In this document: positions 23,078 to 58,980 of the stretch, piece by piece
How positions within the stretch are numbered: the first letter of the stretch is position 1
Layout: each line of letters starts with the position of its first letter
Assembly (NCBI RefSeq): GCF_019464495.1
Contig: NZ_CP080492.1
Coordinates: 1,922,001 to 1,986,000 of the forward strand
Direction: 5' to 3'
Source: Leucobacter luti
GTDB lineage: Bacteria > Actinomycetota > Actinomycetes > Actinomycetales > Microbacteriaceae
Length of the DNA stretch: 64,000 nucleotides
Translations under genes and position numbers: made by a program
The notes under the pieces: model-generated
Databases searched by the model: none
The model's input: only the letters and a program-made list of their open reading frames with translations
Told to the model about the DNA's origin: nothing

Positions 23078-23125
23078 CAGGCCCAGGCCCAGGCCCAGGC
23101 CCAGGCCCAGGCCCAGGCCCAGGCG
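23078..23125. repeat. Hexanucleotide tandem repeat, 8 copies
   Basis: Seven perfect CAGGCC units and a final CAGGCG. The array ends 4 bases before the -10 box of the next gene, so it occupies its spacer and -35 region. Confidence 0.95.
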
Positions 23126-49911: not shown

Positions 49912-51564
49912 CTAGCCGGCCTGGGGAAATCCGCCTGGCTGCCCGCCGCCGGGGCCGCCCATACCTCCGCCCATCCCGGCCGCCGCCTCGCCGGCGGTCG
50001 CCGTGCCGAGCTCGTTGCCGCCGGCGCCGCCCGACACCAGCGTGTAGCTCTCGCCCACTGTGATCCCTGCCGCCGCGATCACCACTGAGCTCGCCGCCTT
50101 CTGCGCGGTTGCGGACACCACTGCCGCACCGGAGGCATCGGCCAACTCGATCTCCTGCCCCGCTGCGATCTGCGCGCTCACCATCGCCCAGCCGAGTGTC
50201 GATTCGGTGCCGGGTGTCTCCTCCATCCCGCCAGCACTGAACGCGATGATTGTGCCGCCGGTCACGGTGATCCCCCCGTTCGAGTCGAGCGCACCGTTGC
50301 CGCTGCGTGTCGGTCCATAGACGGTGATGTCGCCGCCGGTGACGCGCAGGGAGCCGTTCGAGTCGATGCCGTCGCCCTCTGCATCGACGGTGATGGTGCC
50401 GCCTGAGATTTCCAGCCGCTCGCCCGAGTCCTCCATCCCACCGCCACCCATGCCACCTGGGCCGGACTGCTGGGAATCCGTGGTCGCGCTGTTGCCCGAT
50501 GCGTTGATCCCATCGTCGGAGGAGACCAGGGAAACTGTGCCGGCGAAGACGCCGATATTGCCTGCCTCCACTGCCTCGTTCGACTCGGTCACGGTGATGT
50601 CGCCGCCGCCGATCGAGAGCACGACCTCACCCTTCACGCCGTCGTCGGTAGCAGCGACAGTGAGCGTGCCGCCGGTGATCACCGTGTCAGTCTGCGCCTG
50701 CACACCGTCATCGCCAGCGGTGATGTCGATCGTCCCGCCGCTCACGAGAATGTATCCCTTCGTCTCGTCGCCCTCCTGGTCACTCTTCAGCCCGTCGCCT
50801 CCGGTAGCCGTGAGCGCCAGAGTGCCGCCCTCCACCACGAGCGCGTCTGTGCCGCGCAGCGCGTCATCAACCGCGGTCACCGTGACCGTGCCGGAGAGGA
50901 TCACCAGATCATCCTTGCTCGTGATCCCGTCGTTGCCGTTCGCCGTCACCTGCAGCTTGCCGTCTCCCGAGATCGTGAGGTCGGCCGCGGCGTAGATGGC
51001 GGCGTTTGCCTCAGCGTCGTCCGCGTATGAGGCCGCATCTGACACCGCGTTTGTGCTGCCCTTGGCGAGCGAGATCGCCACGTCGTCGGCGGTCTGCACG
51101 TCGATCGCCGCGCCAGCGGAGTTCGTGATGGTGACACCGTCGAGGATCAGCACGACGAGCGCGTCCTCCGGGGCCGCGACCACCACCTGCCCGTCGAGCG
51201 TGCCGCTGAGCCGGTAGACGCCAGCAGCAGAAATGGTGATGGTGCCGTCTGCCGCCGCAACCGCGTCCGAGCTGGTCTTTGCGCTCGACCCGCTCAGCAC
51301 AACCTCAACCGCGTCGCTCGCCGCCCACTCGTCGTCGTTCACCGTCGTGTAATCCGCGTTCCCCGCGAGCACCTCAGTGGGGCTGAGGTCGCCGGTAAAC
51401 GTGGTGCTGACGGCCGGTGTTGCCGCGGTGGATTCCCCAGACGAGGCGGACTCGGAGCTCGCCGACGGCGCGGCGCCCGATCCGGCCCCCGACACTGCCG
51501 TGCAGCCGGTAAGGAGCGCCGCGCTCAGGGCGAGGGCAATGAAGGGGAAGACTGGTCGTTTCAT
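49912..51564 (-). CDS. Cthe_2159-type (DUF4353) beta-helix lipoprotein
   Basis: 550 residues. Lipoprotein signal FPFIALALSAALLTGCTAVS, Ser/Ala linker, then a long parallel beta-helix made of repeated turns such as ADLTISGDGKLQVTANGNDGI, ILVSGGTIDITAGDDGVQA and VTGGDITVYGPTRSGNGALD, with a Gly/Met-rich insert (GPGGMGGGGMEDSG) and a Gly-rich C-terminus. The Cthe_2159 family binds acidic polysaccharide; the Asp-Gly-rich turns suggest calcium. ATG behind AAAGGA and overlapping the VTC gene (ATGA). Surface-exposed. Confidence 0.85.
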   Translation of the reverse strand: MKRPVFPFIALALSAALLTGCTAVSGAGSGAAPSASSESASSGESTAATPAVSTTFTGDLSPTEVLAGNADYTTVNDDEWAASDAVEVVLSGSSAKTSSDAVAAADGTITISAAGVYRLSGTLDGQVVVAAPEDALVVLILDGVTITNSAGAAIDVQTADDVAISLAKGSTNAVSDAASYADDAEANAAIYAAADLTISGDGKLQVTANGNDGITSKDDLVILSGTVTVTAVDDALRGTDALVVEGGTLALTATGGDGLKSDQEGDETKGYILVSGGTIDITAGDDGVQAQTDTVITGGTLTVAATDDGVKGEVVLSIGGGDITVTESNEAVEAGNIGVFAGTVSLVSSDDGINASGNSATTDSQQSGPGGMGGGGMEDSGERLEISGGTITVDAEGDGIDSNGSLRVTGGDITVYGPTRSGNGALDSNGGITVTGGTIIAFSAGGMEETPGTESTLGWAMVSAQIAAGQEIELADASGAAVVSATAQKAASSVVIAAAGITVGESYTLVSGGAGGNELGTATAGEAAAGMGGGMGGPGGGQPGGFPQAG

Positions 51565-52508
51565 GATGCGATCCTTTGCGCTGGGAGGTGGAACTGCTGG
51601 GTGGAGGACACGGGGTGAGTTGGCGCGGGGAGCCGCGACATGCTGAGCGGGGTGGCCGTCGCGAACGGACCGGCAAGCGTGCGCGCCCACTTATTGCTGG
51701 GCAATTCGGGGTGCAGGGCAGCGGTGCCGGTGCCAAACTTGCTGATCCCGCTGGGGCGGTAGCCAGCACGCCAGAGTGCGCGATCCAGCTCGCTCGCGCG
51801 GCCGGCGGACTTCGACTCGAGGATCACGTGATCAGGCAGCCCGATCCCGCACGCAACCGCACCGCCAAGATCCGTGCCGTCGCTCCAGCGCAGCCGCGTA
51901 TCAATCGTGGCGCGGCTCCCCTCCGGCATGAGCAGCGTGGTGCGCTGGTATTGGCTCACCAGCGTCGGCCGCAGGGTAGCAACGAGCGCGGCATCGTGGC
52001 CGTGGTGTGTGAACTGCGCGGCGACGTACCTCCGGCCCGCAGCCGTGAGCGTCGCGCGGTCCGTCGGCGCGTATGCGACTCGCTCCTTCACCGTGGTGCC
52101 CCGGCCACTCTTGGTTTTGAGTTCCAGGAACGTCGATCCAGTGTCGAGGTAGCTGCGGGTGCGGAGCTTAAACCTGCGCCTGCGGCGCTGGGCGGTGAGC
52201 CTGAAGCTCAGGTGATCCGGGGTATCGAAGTACACCGAGTCGTAGGAGAAGTCGCGCCGGCCGTCGATCTCGAGGACGCGAGCGCGCGAGTCAATACGCT
52301 CGAGCAGCGCAGTGGCGGTTGCAACGGGGATCAGGTATTTCCGATCGACTCGAGTCAGCAGTTCGGCCTCGGACACAAGTTCATCGAGCGAGATCGGCGC
52401 GAGCCGGGCCAGGCAGTCGAGTGGGGCGAGTTCCTCTGCCACGGGTGCAGCAGATGCCACAGCTGTGGTGAATGCGGCGGGTGCAGCCCCAGGGTGCACG
52501 GAGGTCAT
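51561..52508 (-). CDS. VTC domain protein (polyphosphate polymerase-like)
   Basis: 315 residues. VTC domain at about 45-265 with ELLTRVDRKYLIPVATA, YDSVYFDTPDHLSFRL, RRRRRFKLRTRSYLDTG, FLELKTKSGRGTTVKERV and HVILESKSAG; the basic tunnel residues and acidic metal ligands of the triphosphate-tunnel fold are therefore present. In yeast the domain polymerises polyphosphate from ATP; in bacteria it usually sits, as here, beside DUF4956. ATGA overlaps on both sides. C-terminal 50 residues are Pro/Thr-rich. Confidence 0.88.
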   Translation of the reverse strand: MTSVHPGAAPAAFTTAVASAAPVAEELAPLDCLARLAPISLDELVSEAELLTRVDRKYLIPVATATALLERIDSRARVLEIDGRRDFSYDSVYFDTPDHLSFRLTAQRRRRRFKLRTRSYLDTGSTFLELKTKSGRGTTVKERVAYAPTDRATLTAAGRRYVAAQFTHHGHDAALVATLRPTLVSQYQRTTLLMPEGSRATIDTRLRWSDGTDLGGAVACGIGLPDHVILESKSAGRASELDRALWRAGYRPSGISKFGTGTAALHPELPSNKWARTLAGPFATATPLSMSRLPAPTHPVSSTQQFHLPAQRIAS

Positions 52509-53116
52509 CGCTCGACTCCAGCCGTCGCGACTAGTGCCGGATCGCGCCGCTTCTCACGCTTCGCCGCAGTGTCCAGGCGGAAGCGCACATCCACCAGCGT
52601 CGAGTCGTTCACGAGGTCCAGCTGCTGCACGGTAATCGCGGTGACCGTGGCCCCCAGCCGCGCCTCCAATTCTTCGCGCAGCTCCCGCTCGTCGGCAATT
52701 GCCCGGTCGAGACGCACCACTTGGTGCCGGCTGTTCGCGAGCACGGCCGGGTGATCCACCGCCCACAGCACCACCACGATGAGGGCGATGAGGCCGGTTG
52801 GGATGATCACGTTGCTCTGGGACAGCCCGCCGATCAGCCCCATCGCGAGCGCCGCGAAGTAGTACGCCACCTCGCGCTGCGAGATCTCGGAGGAGCGGAG
52901 CCGGATGATAGACAGCACGCCGAAGAGTCCCAGGCCGAGGCCCGCTGCGATCTCTGCCGATCCCAGCACGCTCGTGACGGCGAGCACTCCAACGTTCACA
53001 CCAAGGAACGCGACAACGAGGTCGCGCCTGCGGTGCCGCGGATAGTAGAGGCCACAGGCGAGGATCAGGGCCGCGACGAGGTCGACAGCGATGAGGATGA
53101 AATCGGGGGTGTTCAC
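52505..53116 (-). CDS. DUF4956 membrane protein
   Basis: 203 residues. Four hydrophobic helices in the first 120 residues (FILIAVDLVAALILACGLYY; LVVAFLGVNVGVLAVTSVLG; GLGLGLFGVLSIIRLRS; VIIPTGLIALIVVVLWAV) with the family motif RLRSSEISQREVAYYFAALA, then a soluble helical/beta C-terminus. Function unknown; co-occurs with VTC proteins, so it may be the membrane partner or channel. GTG start with AGGAG upstream. Confidence 0.88.
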   Translation of the reverse strand: MNTPDFILIAVDLVAALILACGLYYPRHRRRDLVVAFLGVNVGVLAVTSVLGSAEIAAGLGLGLFGVLSIIRLRSSEISQREVAYYFAALAMGLIGGLSQSNVIIPTGLIALIVVVLWAVDHPAVLANSRHQVVRLDRAIADERELREELEARLGATVTAITVQQLDLVNDSTLVDVRFRLDTAAKREKRRDPALVATAGVER

Positions 53117-53188
53117 TGAGGTCTCCTAGAGTTTGGGGCTGGAGCCAGCCCACTCGATATTCCTTGGTGCGAGCTATGTTTATGTGGC

Positions 53189-54280
53189 TCAACAGGCGGT
53201 GTGAGGCGAAGAGTCCGCCACCGCTGTACGAGAGATACCGCCAGCGCGGTACGCCGGGGCGAAGACTGAGGAGCGCTGCGTGCGGTAGCTCGTGCAGAAG
53301 AGCACGATTTCGGTAAGGAGCTTGGCGCCCCAGAGCGACATCCCGATCCCCGTGAGGTACGACAGCCACACGATGTTGGAGGCGAGCAGCACGGCAGCAA
53401 GCAACACGTAGGAGCCGAGCTGCCGCCACATTCCTTCACGCCCACGCCGAAGAAACACCACGCGCCGGTTCACGAAGAAGTTGACGCTCGCGCTCACCAG
53501 CCTGGCCGCGATGATCGACGGGACGAGGGCACCCGTGGCCGCCTGCAACAGGAACAGCGCGATCGTGTCGACGGCGAAGCCGAGCAGCGAGGACGCTGCG
53601 AACACCAGCGTCGGCAGCGTTACCCGCACGGAATCGAGCACTGGCCGAAAGTGGCTCGACTCGTTGCCCGCGAGATACACGGTCGCGATCGGGATCTCCT
53701 CGGCCGTGAAGCCGGCCCCGTGCAGTCCCAGCAACATCCGCTGCTCGTACTCAAACCGCTCGCCAGGCAGACCGATCAGCCACGGCACCAGCGCAGCGGG
53801 GAACCCGCGCAGCCCGGTTTGGGTGTCCGAAAGCGGCCACCCGGCAGCCGCTCGAAACAGCCTGCGGGAGATGTCGTTGCCCAGGCGGCTGCGCAGCGGG
53901 ACAGCGCCGTCGAAGGTGCGGCAGCCGAGCACCAGTGTTCGACCGTCGCGCTCGCCGAGGGCGCGGACGCGATCCGCCACCGCCACGATGTCGGCGCAGG
54001 TGTGCTGCCCATCCGCGTCGGCCGACACCACACCCTCGGACGGTGCGACCCCGTGCACGTGAGCGAGCCCGGTCTTGAGCGCGGCTCCTTTGCCCAGGTT
54101 GCGATCGTGGCGGAGGATCGTGGCGCCAGCCGCGGCCGCCCTGGCGAAGATTGAGGCGTAGGCGGGGCCCGATCCGTCGTCGACAACCACGATCCCGAGC
54201 CCGGGATCGGCTGCGGCGAGCGCGGTGACGAGCGTCGGGAGGTGTTCTGCCGGCTCGTAGGCGGGGATGAGTGCGATCAC
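53189..54280 (-). CDS. GT2 glycosyltransferase fused to GtrA
   Basis: 363 residues. Residues 1-215: GT-A family 2 glycosyltransferase (LIPAYEPAEHLPTLVTALA, VVDDGSG, RNLGKGAALKTGL, SADADGQHT with the Asp-x-Asp metal site, LSDTQTGLRGF). Residues 225-340: GtrA four-helix domain (LGFAVDTIALFLLQAATG, RLVSASVNFFVNRRVVF). Such fusions transfer a sugar to a polyprenyl phosphate and flip it. GTG start 3 bases after the glycosidase stop. Confidence 0.9.
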   Translation of the reverse strand: MIALIPAYEPAEHLPTLVTALAAADPGLGIVVVDDGSGPAYASIFARAAAAGATILRHDRNLGKGAALKTGLAHVHGVAPSEGVVSADADGQHTCADIVAVADRVRALGERDGRTLVLGCRTFDGAVPLRSRLGNDISRRLFRAAAGWPLSDTQTGLRGFPAALVPWLIGLPGERFEYEQRMLLGLHGAGFTAEEIPIATVYLAGNESSHFRPVLDSVRVTLPTLVFAASSLLGFAVDTIALFLLQAATGALVPSIIAARLVSASVNFFVNRRVVFLRRGREGMWRQLGSYVLLAAVLLASNIVWLSYLTGIGMSLWGAKLLTEIVLFCTSYRTQRSSVFAPAYRAGGISRTAVADSSPHTAC

Positions 54281-54283
54281 GGC

Positions 54284-55293
54284 TCAGCCCGCCACGTAGA
54301 GGATGTCGCTGGTGCCGCGCTCACCGCCGTTGGACGGCTGGTTCACCACCTCGCCGTTGAACACCATCGTGGAGGATCCACCGCCGTCGAGGTTGTACGC
54401 GGTCTCGGCGCCGAGCTCCCGCATGATCTCGGCGAGCTCGGTCATGGTGACACCGCGGCTGTAACCTTCGCTGCGACCGTCGACCACCACAAATACCAGG
54501 TGGTTCTCGTCGATGACGCCGACGGCAGTGCGCGGTTGTTCGCCCTGGATCGAGTGGTTGCCGAAGTTCGTGTCGACTTCGACGTCGTCAATGCCGCTCA
54601 GCACCGCGCCGTCCACGAGCAGCGCCGGCCCGAAGCTGAGAGTGCTCCACACTCCGGCGGCGAGCAGCTCTGCGGCGCTCGTCGCGGTTTCGTCGTAGAC
54701 CTTCACCGTGCCGTCGGTGTACAAGGCGAGCCCGGTGCGCGCCGGTTCATCTCGGTAGATCACGCCGTTGCGGATCTCGATTCCGGTCTCGCGGAAGCCG
54801 TAGTAGTCGCCGTTGATCGCGAACACAGCATCGTGATCCGCCGCGATCTCGCTCGTGGTCGCTGTGACGTTCGTGCCGAACTGGTTGGCGGCGAAGGCGG
54901 AGCGGAGTTCGGTCGCGTCACCGAGCGTGACGTCCGCGACGTAGTACGTGACCGTGTCGGATCCTGATCCGGTGCTGAGCTGCTGCACCGTGACAGCGGT
55001 GTCGCCGTTGGTGTAGCTGTCGGCGGTGAGCGTGGCGGCGTCAGTTGCGGCGTCCGCGTCTGTGCCTGCCGTGTTCGTGCCTGCCGTGCTGTGCGCGGCC
55101 TCGTAGGCGGCGACGTCGGCCACTTGCACATCGGGAATCAGAAACCGCTCGGCGGCCCACGCGGCGCCGCCCCTGCTGCGAGCACGACGGCCAGCGTCGC
55201 GGAGAGGATGATCGTGCGCGGCCGGATCCGGCGTCGTTTGGGGTCCGGATGCGCAGCCGGTGTGTGATCTTGGGGGCTCTGATTCGCTTCCAT
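54284..55293 (-). pseudogene. Phosphodiester glycosidase (NAGPA/DUF2233), one frameshift
   Basis: Restored length 336 residues. N-terminal cytoplasmic tail rich in Pro, His, Arg, one membrane anchor (TIILSATLAVVLAAGAA), then the extracytoplasmic domain: FAINGDYYGFRETGIEIRNG, LSFGPALLVDG, PRTAVGVIDENHLVFVVVDG and YNLDGGGSSTMVFNG, the NAGPA signature. The family hydrolyses sugar-phosphodiester bonds. The frame breaks at about 55161-55170 (one base short) between AVVLAAGAA and WAAERFLIPDVQ. First gene of the cluster. Confidence 0.83.
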
Positions 55294-58822: not shown

Positions 58823-58932
58823 CCGCAGCACCGGAGGACCGCGGCACCGCTCGACCGCTGGACCGCAGGACCGCAAGGCCGCAGGACCGCAGAACCGCAA
58901 GGCCGCAGCACCGCAGAACCGCAGCACCGCAG
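58823..58932. repeat. 8-bp tandem repeat, about 14 copies
   Basis: Units CCGCAGCA, CCGCAGGA, CCGCAGAA, CCGCAAGG and variants follow each other without phase slip; the CCG start is kept in every unit and CCGC in nearly all. Begins 3 bases after the LuxR stop codon. Confidence 0.9.
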
Positions 58933-58944
58933 AGCGGAAGTGGA

Positions 58945-58980
<36 letters not shown>

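Follow-up and report, generated by a model that had tools for sequence, protein, structure and literature searches.

Multi-component transmembrane glycosylation, as set out in passages of PMC8035078, is carried out by a glycosyltransferase (GT) of the GT-A type acting as synthase, a flippase and a GT-C transferase. The eukaryotic VTC complex, as portrayed in sections of PMC9911596, combines the TTM polymerase Vtc4 with a Vtc1 channel. A poly-phosphate polymerase gene beside DUF4956 and CotH genes has been published for Gram-positive pel operons (PMC7112168, in extract), a VTC-CotH neighbourhood appears in an excerpt of PMC2879425 for Clostridium perfringens, and Bacillus subtilis UshA liberates undecaprenyl phosphate (UndP) from UndP-linked sugars according to part of PMC11898649. 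Here we analyse a 64,000-nucleotide stretch of Leucobacter luti (Microbacteriaceae) DNA (assembly GCF_019464495.1, contig NZ_CP080492.1, positions 1,922,001 to 1,986,000, forward strand; hereafter the window) that holds a set of five genes, encoding a NAGPA-family protein, a GT2-GtrA fusion, a DUF4956 membrane protein, a VTC-domain protein and a Cthe_2159-family lipoprotein. The analysis confirms all five genes and that they belong together, and we propose, with a probability of about 0.4, that they form one cell-envelope pathway of two modules, a polyphosphate core and a lipid-sugar add-on, for which we infer the chemistry.

With the CsbB/GtcA/YfhO-type glycosylation systems (PMC8035078, same passages) the set shares a lipid-phosphate-sugar synthase and a GtrA flippase (one fused protein in our case) and, encoded next to these, an enzyme anchored in the membrane; that enzyme, however, is a GT-C protein with 8-13 helices in those systems and a NAGPA-family protein with one anchor here. 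As in the eukaryotic VTC complex, a polymerase is paired with a small membrane protein and the VTC/TTM domain carries the invariant Vtc4-type residues, but no SPX domain was found by Pfam in the window VTC, and a separate DUF4956 protein, a putative channel at most, replaces the Vtc1-type helices. Among the cotH-PPP-DUF4956 accessory genes of the pel operons, too, a polyphosphate-polymerase-like gene adjoins DUF4956 in the context of an envelope polymer, although they feature CotH where the window has Cthe_2159, and the window adds NAGPA and GT2-GtrA. UshA has its substrate class, polyprenyl-phosphate-sugars, in common with what we propose for the window NAGPA, but it resembles alpha/beta hydrolases, and the NAGPA activity is only proposed. 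The open-access literature that we searched gave no account of the NAGPA/GT2-GtrA pair or of its tie to VTC; the set is real and recurs, each of its families is known, and as a pathway it has apparently not been described.

Organization of the five-gene set

Families were assigned by Pfam, positions are those of the window, and the host contig is chromosome-sized (3,408,875 bases). The features, all on the minus strand, are as follows.

49912..51564, minus strand: Cthe_2159-family (PF14262) beta-helix lipoprotein, 550 amino acids (aa), lipobox LLTGC, Pfam E 2.2e-76
51561..52508, minus strand: VTC-domain (PF09359, TTM fold) putative polyphosphate polymerase, 315 aa, Pfam E 9.9e-26
52505..53116, minus strand: DUF4956 (PF16316) membrane protein, 203 aa, Pfam E 3.8e-63
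53189..54280, minus strand: GT2-GtrA fusion (Glycos_transf_2 PF00535 plus GtrA PF04138), 363 aa, by Pfam
54284..55129, minus strand: catalytic part of a NAGPA-family (PF09992) phosphodiester glycosidase, 281 codons when read from the first in-frame GTG, Pfam E 8.2e-41
55138..55293, minus strand: N-terminal signal-anchor segment of the NAGPA gene, by frame analysis in another frame than the catalytic part; continuous with it in Leucobacter luti P0122

DUF4956 and VTC, and VTC and Cthe_2159, overlap by 4 bases, and gaps of 3 and 72 bases separate NAGPA from GT2-GtrA and GT2-GtrA from DUF4956. An initial annotation of this DNA had described the cluster by these families, the minus strand, the 4-base overlaps and the 3-base gap, all of which are borne out; its single NAGPA gene reaching up to 55293 is not, as no one open frame spans 55293-54284. 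The ATG at 55293 opens the signal-anchor frame, which ends at 55138, the catalytic part reads in a different frame, and the break lies near 55160 within a GC-rich stretch. The Leucobacter luti protein P0122 is one continuous anchored NAGPA protein, 96% identical to the window's catalytic part, and the NAGPA proteins of relatives have the anchor in frame with the catalytic part; the break in the window may be an assembly error or a real one. The nearest named proteins to the window DUF4956 and NAGPA both come from Leucobacter.

The window NAGPA matches the solved structures 6ozd, 3ohg and 6pku (profile A1) and falls in the NAGPA/DUF2233 fold group. Its family is that of the mannose-6-phosphate uncovering enzyme of animals, which cleaves alpha-linked N-acetylglucosamine-phosphate. 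Relatives of NAGPA also lie on large plasmids (Actinomyces oris NZ_CP116225.1 81017-81745; Paenibacillus cellulosilyticus NZ_CP054609.1 39914-40642).

NAGPA is tied to the GT2-GtrA fusion

A NAGPA profile scan of genome contigs gave at least 564 confirmed relatives, the best 80 of which are the 80 loci referred to below. NAGPA is followed directly by GT2-GtrA in 77 of them (and in 6/6 cases in the relatives sample described below); it is not in L171 and L190, where no GT2-GtrA lies beside NAGPA, nor in L177, in which both lie in one frame. DUF4956, VTC and Cthe_2159 are all near NAGPA in 36/80 loci, which include Microbacterium, Arthrobacter, Nocardioides, Modestobacter, Actinoplanes, a metagenome-assembled genome (MAG) of the Acidimicrobiales and Longilinea arvoryzae. 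GT2-GtrA accompanies them in 35, Longilinea arvoryzae, which we take to stand outside the Actinobacteria, being the sole one without it. Two loci with short flanks (L138, L156) show part of the trio only, and neither VTC nor DUF4956 is near NAGPA in the other 42, of which 29 have more than 8 kb on both sides. Operons overlap in many of the 80 loci. Two of the loci are from Rothia nasimurium genomes: L182 retains the complete set of five families, its GT2-GtrA being split in two, and L176 has NAGPA and GT2-GtrA.

The GT2 domain of the window fusion matches dolichol-phosphate mannose (DPM) synthase (5mlz, E 2.9e-8) and ArnC (profile A2), and its GtrA domain was assigned at E 7.2e-13. When matches to a GT2-GtrA-CotH frame from Homoserinibacter were inspected (the best 120 of 246), five natural GT2-GtrA-NAGPA fusions came to light (P0285, P0288 and P0298-P0300), together with three GT2-GtrA-CotH proteins in two genera, query included, and proteins in which GT2-GtrA is accompanied by a listed PMT_2 GT-C domain (e.g. 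P0311, where the PMT_2 score of 24.8 falls short of the cut-off, 26.1). In all five NAGPA fusions NAGPA is C-terminal and a hydrophobic stretch lies between GtrA and NAGPA; since NAGPA precedes GT2-GtrA in the operons, the fusions are not operon read-through. A structural model of P0288 (mean predicted local distance difference test (pLDDT) 85.6; predicted template modelling score (pTM) 0.54, at which domain placement is unreliable) runs from a GT2 domain through four long helices and a fifth, which is predicted poorly, to a NAGPA domain, and its halves match solved NAGPA proteins and the DPM synthase/ArnC/GtrB folds. If the GT2 domain is cytosolic, five crossings would place NAGPA outside in these fusions. 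At two loci (L117:10828-13176 and L123:10818-13175) GT2-GtrA and CotH share a single open frame, and a signal resembling a lipobox marks their junction.

Besides the families already named, the scanned clusters of recurrent neighbours of the 80 loci were an ABC transporter (in 21 loci), a response regulator (in 20; for example L116:7382-9606), a histidine kinase (in 7) and an MFS protein (in 7). No GT-C gene was among the recurrent neighbours scanned, a scan that omitted one 8-locus cluster, clusters in six loci or fewer and the rest of the genomes, and there may be a rare GT-C partner.

The sugar pair depends on the VTC-DUF4956-Cthe_2159 trio across genomes

Whole genomes were searched for VTC for 27 of the 29 well-flanked VTC-free loci (L146 and L177 excluded), and VTC was present elsewhere in the genome in 25. 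The stretches around these 25 VTC places contained DUF4956 in 24 cases and Cthe_2159 in 21; for the four places without a nearby Cthe_2159 gene, one of which has CotH beside DUF4956, Cthe_2159 lies elsewhere in the genome.

We also examined 199 genomes drawn evenly from the family (85 genera), in which NAGPA was scored at a threshold of 1e-80 and found in 12 (two of the matches, in G517 and G486, being partial at about 1e-110), VTC in 26, Cthe_2159 in 24 and CotH in 13. VTC is present in 11/12 NAGPA genomes (Fisher p 2.3e-10; by genus 1.1e-6) and Cthe_2159 in 12/12 (p 4.7e-13; by genus 3.5e-9), by tests that take no account of the tree. Of the 11 NAGPA/VTC pairs, four lie close together; in the other seven the two genes are unlinked, being on separate contigs or at a distance of hundreds of kilobases. 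Of 23 family genomes having both VTC and Cthe_2159, 12 have no NAGPA, and because of this we regard the sugar pair as an optional add-on to the trio. CotH is enriched in NAGPA genomes (5/12, p 3e-4), and two of the three family VTC genomes without Cthe_2159 have CotH. In the sample of 60 relatives, NAGPA was found in 6 and VTC in 19, with an overlap of 6 (p 5.4e-4). In the class sample four NAGPA matches are full-length, and each of them comes from a genome that also has DUF4956; 15 weaker ones cover the last third of the profile only. At most 6 NAGPA candidates per genome were scored class-wide and at most 10 in the family search, and in the relatives and class samples a clean gap separates orthologues (E below 1e-140) from other NAGPA proteins (E above 1e-24).

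VTC and DUF4956 form the constant part of the core

The trio was examined from its own side by searching VTC in the genomes of the 60 relatives (match in 19, own included) and DUF4956 in 296 genomes of the class (match in 39, own included), and by taking the neighbourhoods of 18 VTC places and 40/46 DUF4956 places, 58 loci in all; the places left out were those in the own genome, one already covered and four more whose matches were weak. VTC and DUF4956, whose adjacency the initial annotation had called recurrent in bacteria, stand together on one strand in 58/58 loci, with Cthe_2159 close by in 28, and GT2-GtrA and NAGPA in 4. These counts and those of the two preceding sections support the claim of that annotation that the five genes function together, and do so outside the window too: far from being seldom found together in related genomes, the families recur as neighbours and co-occur. 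Two tandem DUF4956-VTC pairs with a single Cthe_2159 gene after them were seen at L209 (from the same genome as L152, Actinomyces massiliensis) and at L219 (from that of L183, A. gerencseriae).

The VTC domain (PF09359) scores 91.2 bits against a cut-off of 23, and the window VTC matches yeast Vtc4 (3g3q) at E 2.6e-12 (profile A3). In an alignment of 20 bacterial sequences, 21 positions other than the start Met are invariant, including those that align to Vtc4 K200, Y241, D243, R264, R266, Y268, E279 and K281; R116 and R118 of the window VTC correspond to R264 and R266, and its invariant E231 to the glutamate at Vtc4 426 in the printed alignment. Changing R264, R266 and E426 together impairs Vtc4, as stated in the cited sections of PMC9911596. 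That the window VTC keeps the catalytic residues of yeast Vtc4 and is of the polymerase type is supported at the sequence level, and the polyphosphate-polymerase-like protein of the initial annotation holds in these terms, on the residues and on the Pfam and profile matches. No hydrophobic helix was found in the window VTC.

The DUF4956 protein is predicted by AlphaFold2 to have five helices and a small C-terminal alpha/beta domain (pLDDT 87.2, pTM 0.70), and L68, S69, R72, R74, F87 and L154 are invariant among 19 aligned sequences. By analogy only, it may be the exit path for the chain. One DUF4956 copy (L110:9786-10463) matches MgtC (PF02308) weakly (E 2.5e-4, 21.8 bits against a cut-off of 31.4), a match to the Pfam profile that is absent in the window DUF4956 and in the L190 copy; hhalign of DUF4956 against MgtC is likewise weak (E 0.002 with a probability of 14%, and E 0.011 with one of 3.7%; control 0.7).

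The Cthe_2159 protein is acidic (44 D, 26 E, 9 K and 6 R), has a Ser/Thr-rich stretch after its lipobox and matches PDB 4peu at E 3.9e-37; with the Pfam assignment and the lipobox LLTGC, this points to a surface beta-helix lipoprotein, as had been annotated. We take 4peu to be Cthe_2159 of Clostridium thermocellum, whose family reportedly binds acid sugars or metal; the window protein has the same family and beta-helix core but is found here in an operon with VTC-DUF4956. CotH (PF08757) has no match in the window's genome. At seven loci (L103-L108 and L110), with lower-scoring VTC and DUF4956, it stands in place of Cthe_2159 after these two genes. The CotH profile was built from loci of this set, and Pfam confirmed CotH in five scanned proteins (L110, L092, L203, L117 and L180).

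A proposed two-module pathway and its alternatives

The scheme that we propose starts from what was computed, namely the family assignments, the catalytic residues of VTC, the pairing and fusion of NAGPA with GT2-GtrA, and the finding that across genomes the pair depends on the core; from these we infer the polyphosphate product, its export through DUF4956, the NAGPA substrate and the acceptor. Cytosolic VTC would polymerise phosphate from ATP, membrane DUF4956 would anchor VTC and let the chain out, and the Cthe_2159 lipoprotein outside would receive or hold the product. GT2-GtrA would make a polyprenyl-phosphate-linked sugar inside and flip it, and membrane-anchored NAGPA, outside, would attack the sugar-1-phosphodiester of the flipped donor in place of a GT-C transferase, so that the carrier lipid is released and the sugar passes to a core acceptor, either the lipoprotein or the polymer after its export. 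A polyprenyl-phosphate-sugar is the likeliest NAGPA substrate because NAGPA is tied first to GT2-GtrA (77/80 adjacent, natural fusions). Such a donor is a sugar-1-phosphodiester, the bond class that gave NAGPA its name, and there is the precedent of UshA, which is why NAGPA is proposed to take the donor's sugar. The most novel form of this scheme, in which Actinobacteria export surface polyphosphate via VTC-DUF4956, cap or decorate it with sugar from the polyprenyl-phosphate donor by a NAGPA-fold enzyme, as a novel type of lipid-sugar-dependent transferase, and hold the sugar-bearing polyphosphate by the beta-helix lipoprotein, is quite improbable.

Several observations weigh against the two-module pathway. 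The window NAGPA has no in-frame export signal or membrane anchor, and the DUF4956 fold search gave no clear match and hence no support for a channel role. The NAGPA profile was itself built from five VTC-linked copies, and the Fisher tests leave out the tree. The two of the 27 searched genomes in which VTC was missing are a Herbiconiux MAG (G360), which has NAGPA with neither VTC nor Cthe_2159, and Rothia nasimurium G367 (locus L176), which has no VTC and a Cthe_2159 fragment only. In G474, the one NAGPA genome of the family sample that lacks VTC, NAGPA, GT2-GtrA, DUF4956 and two Cthe_2159 genes come without a VTC match, DUF4956 lying three bases before one Cthe_2159 gene (L223:7248-9371) and the second Cthe_2159 gene beside NAGPA and GT2-GtrA (L222:5937-9610). 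DPM-type GT2 synthases are held to make beta-linked products and the animal NAGPA substrate is alpha-linked, so the window NAGPA may not accept the GT2-GtrA donor.

There are other readings. The pair might glycosylate the Cthe_2159 (or CotH) lipoprotein, in which case polyphosphate would occur in parallel in that surface complex without being the acceptor. Cthe_2159 accompanies NAGPA in 12/12 family genomes and VTC in 11, G474 keeps two Cthe_2159 genes without VTC, GT2-GtrA shares a frame with CotH in the three proteins mentioned above, and the Ser/Thr-rich stretch lies behind the Cthe_2159 lipobox; yet there is no known acceptor motif and VTC is still found with NAGPA in 11/12, and we consider this unlikely. 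It is improbable that NAGPA only recycles carrier lipid, freeing polyprenyl-phosphate from stranded polyprenyl-phosphate-sugar as UshA does (PMC11898649, same part) while an unlinked GT-C makes the transfer: the family name of phosphodiester glycosidases and the pairing and fusions with GT2-GtrA would suit it, but an enzyme with recycling as its sole role would not have to rely on the VTC-DUF4956-Cthe_2159 trio, and UshA has another fold than NAGPA.

The initial annotation had NAGPA trim the polymer; in such a model the cluster would make a phosphoglycan, and NAGPA would trim or edit its sugar-phosphodiester side groups. Known NAGPA chemistry and the linkage of NAGPA to VTC in the pathway agree with such editing, but travel and fusion with a lipid-sugar synthase/flippase place the NAGPA substrate before polymer assembly and not after it, the pair is an add-on (12/23 without NAGPA), and the set has no polymerase for a sugar-phosphate chain; the proposal is not supported, and we hold editing to be as improbable as recycling. 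A shared lifestyle, with pair and trio as independently selected envelope genes gained together without direct biochemical coupling, would fit the patchiness of both modules within genus and family and the two-component-type regulators that recur near the loci, but it fits poorly with the operon overlaps seen at many of the 80 loci and with a nested distribution in 199 genomes in which 7/11 pairs are unlinked, and is very improbable.

The two-module pathway supplies the bacterial VTC-DUF4956 pair, which is recurrent but little studied, with defined partners and a scheme open to test, and it carries the proposal that NAGPA-family proteins can act on polyprenyl-phosphate-sugars. If true, transmembrane glycosylation would not always need a GT-C enzyme, and bacterial surface polyphosphate would be directly testable via two genes.

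The window also contains short tandem repeat arrays at 58823-58980 and 23078-23124, with 8-, 16- and 24-base units and with AGCGAC and CAGGCC hexamers.

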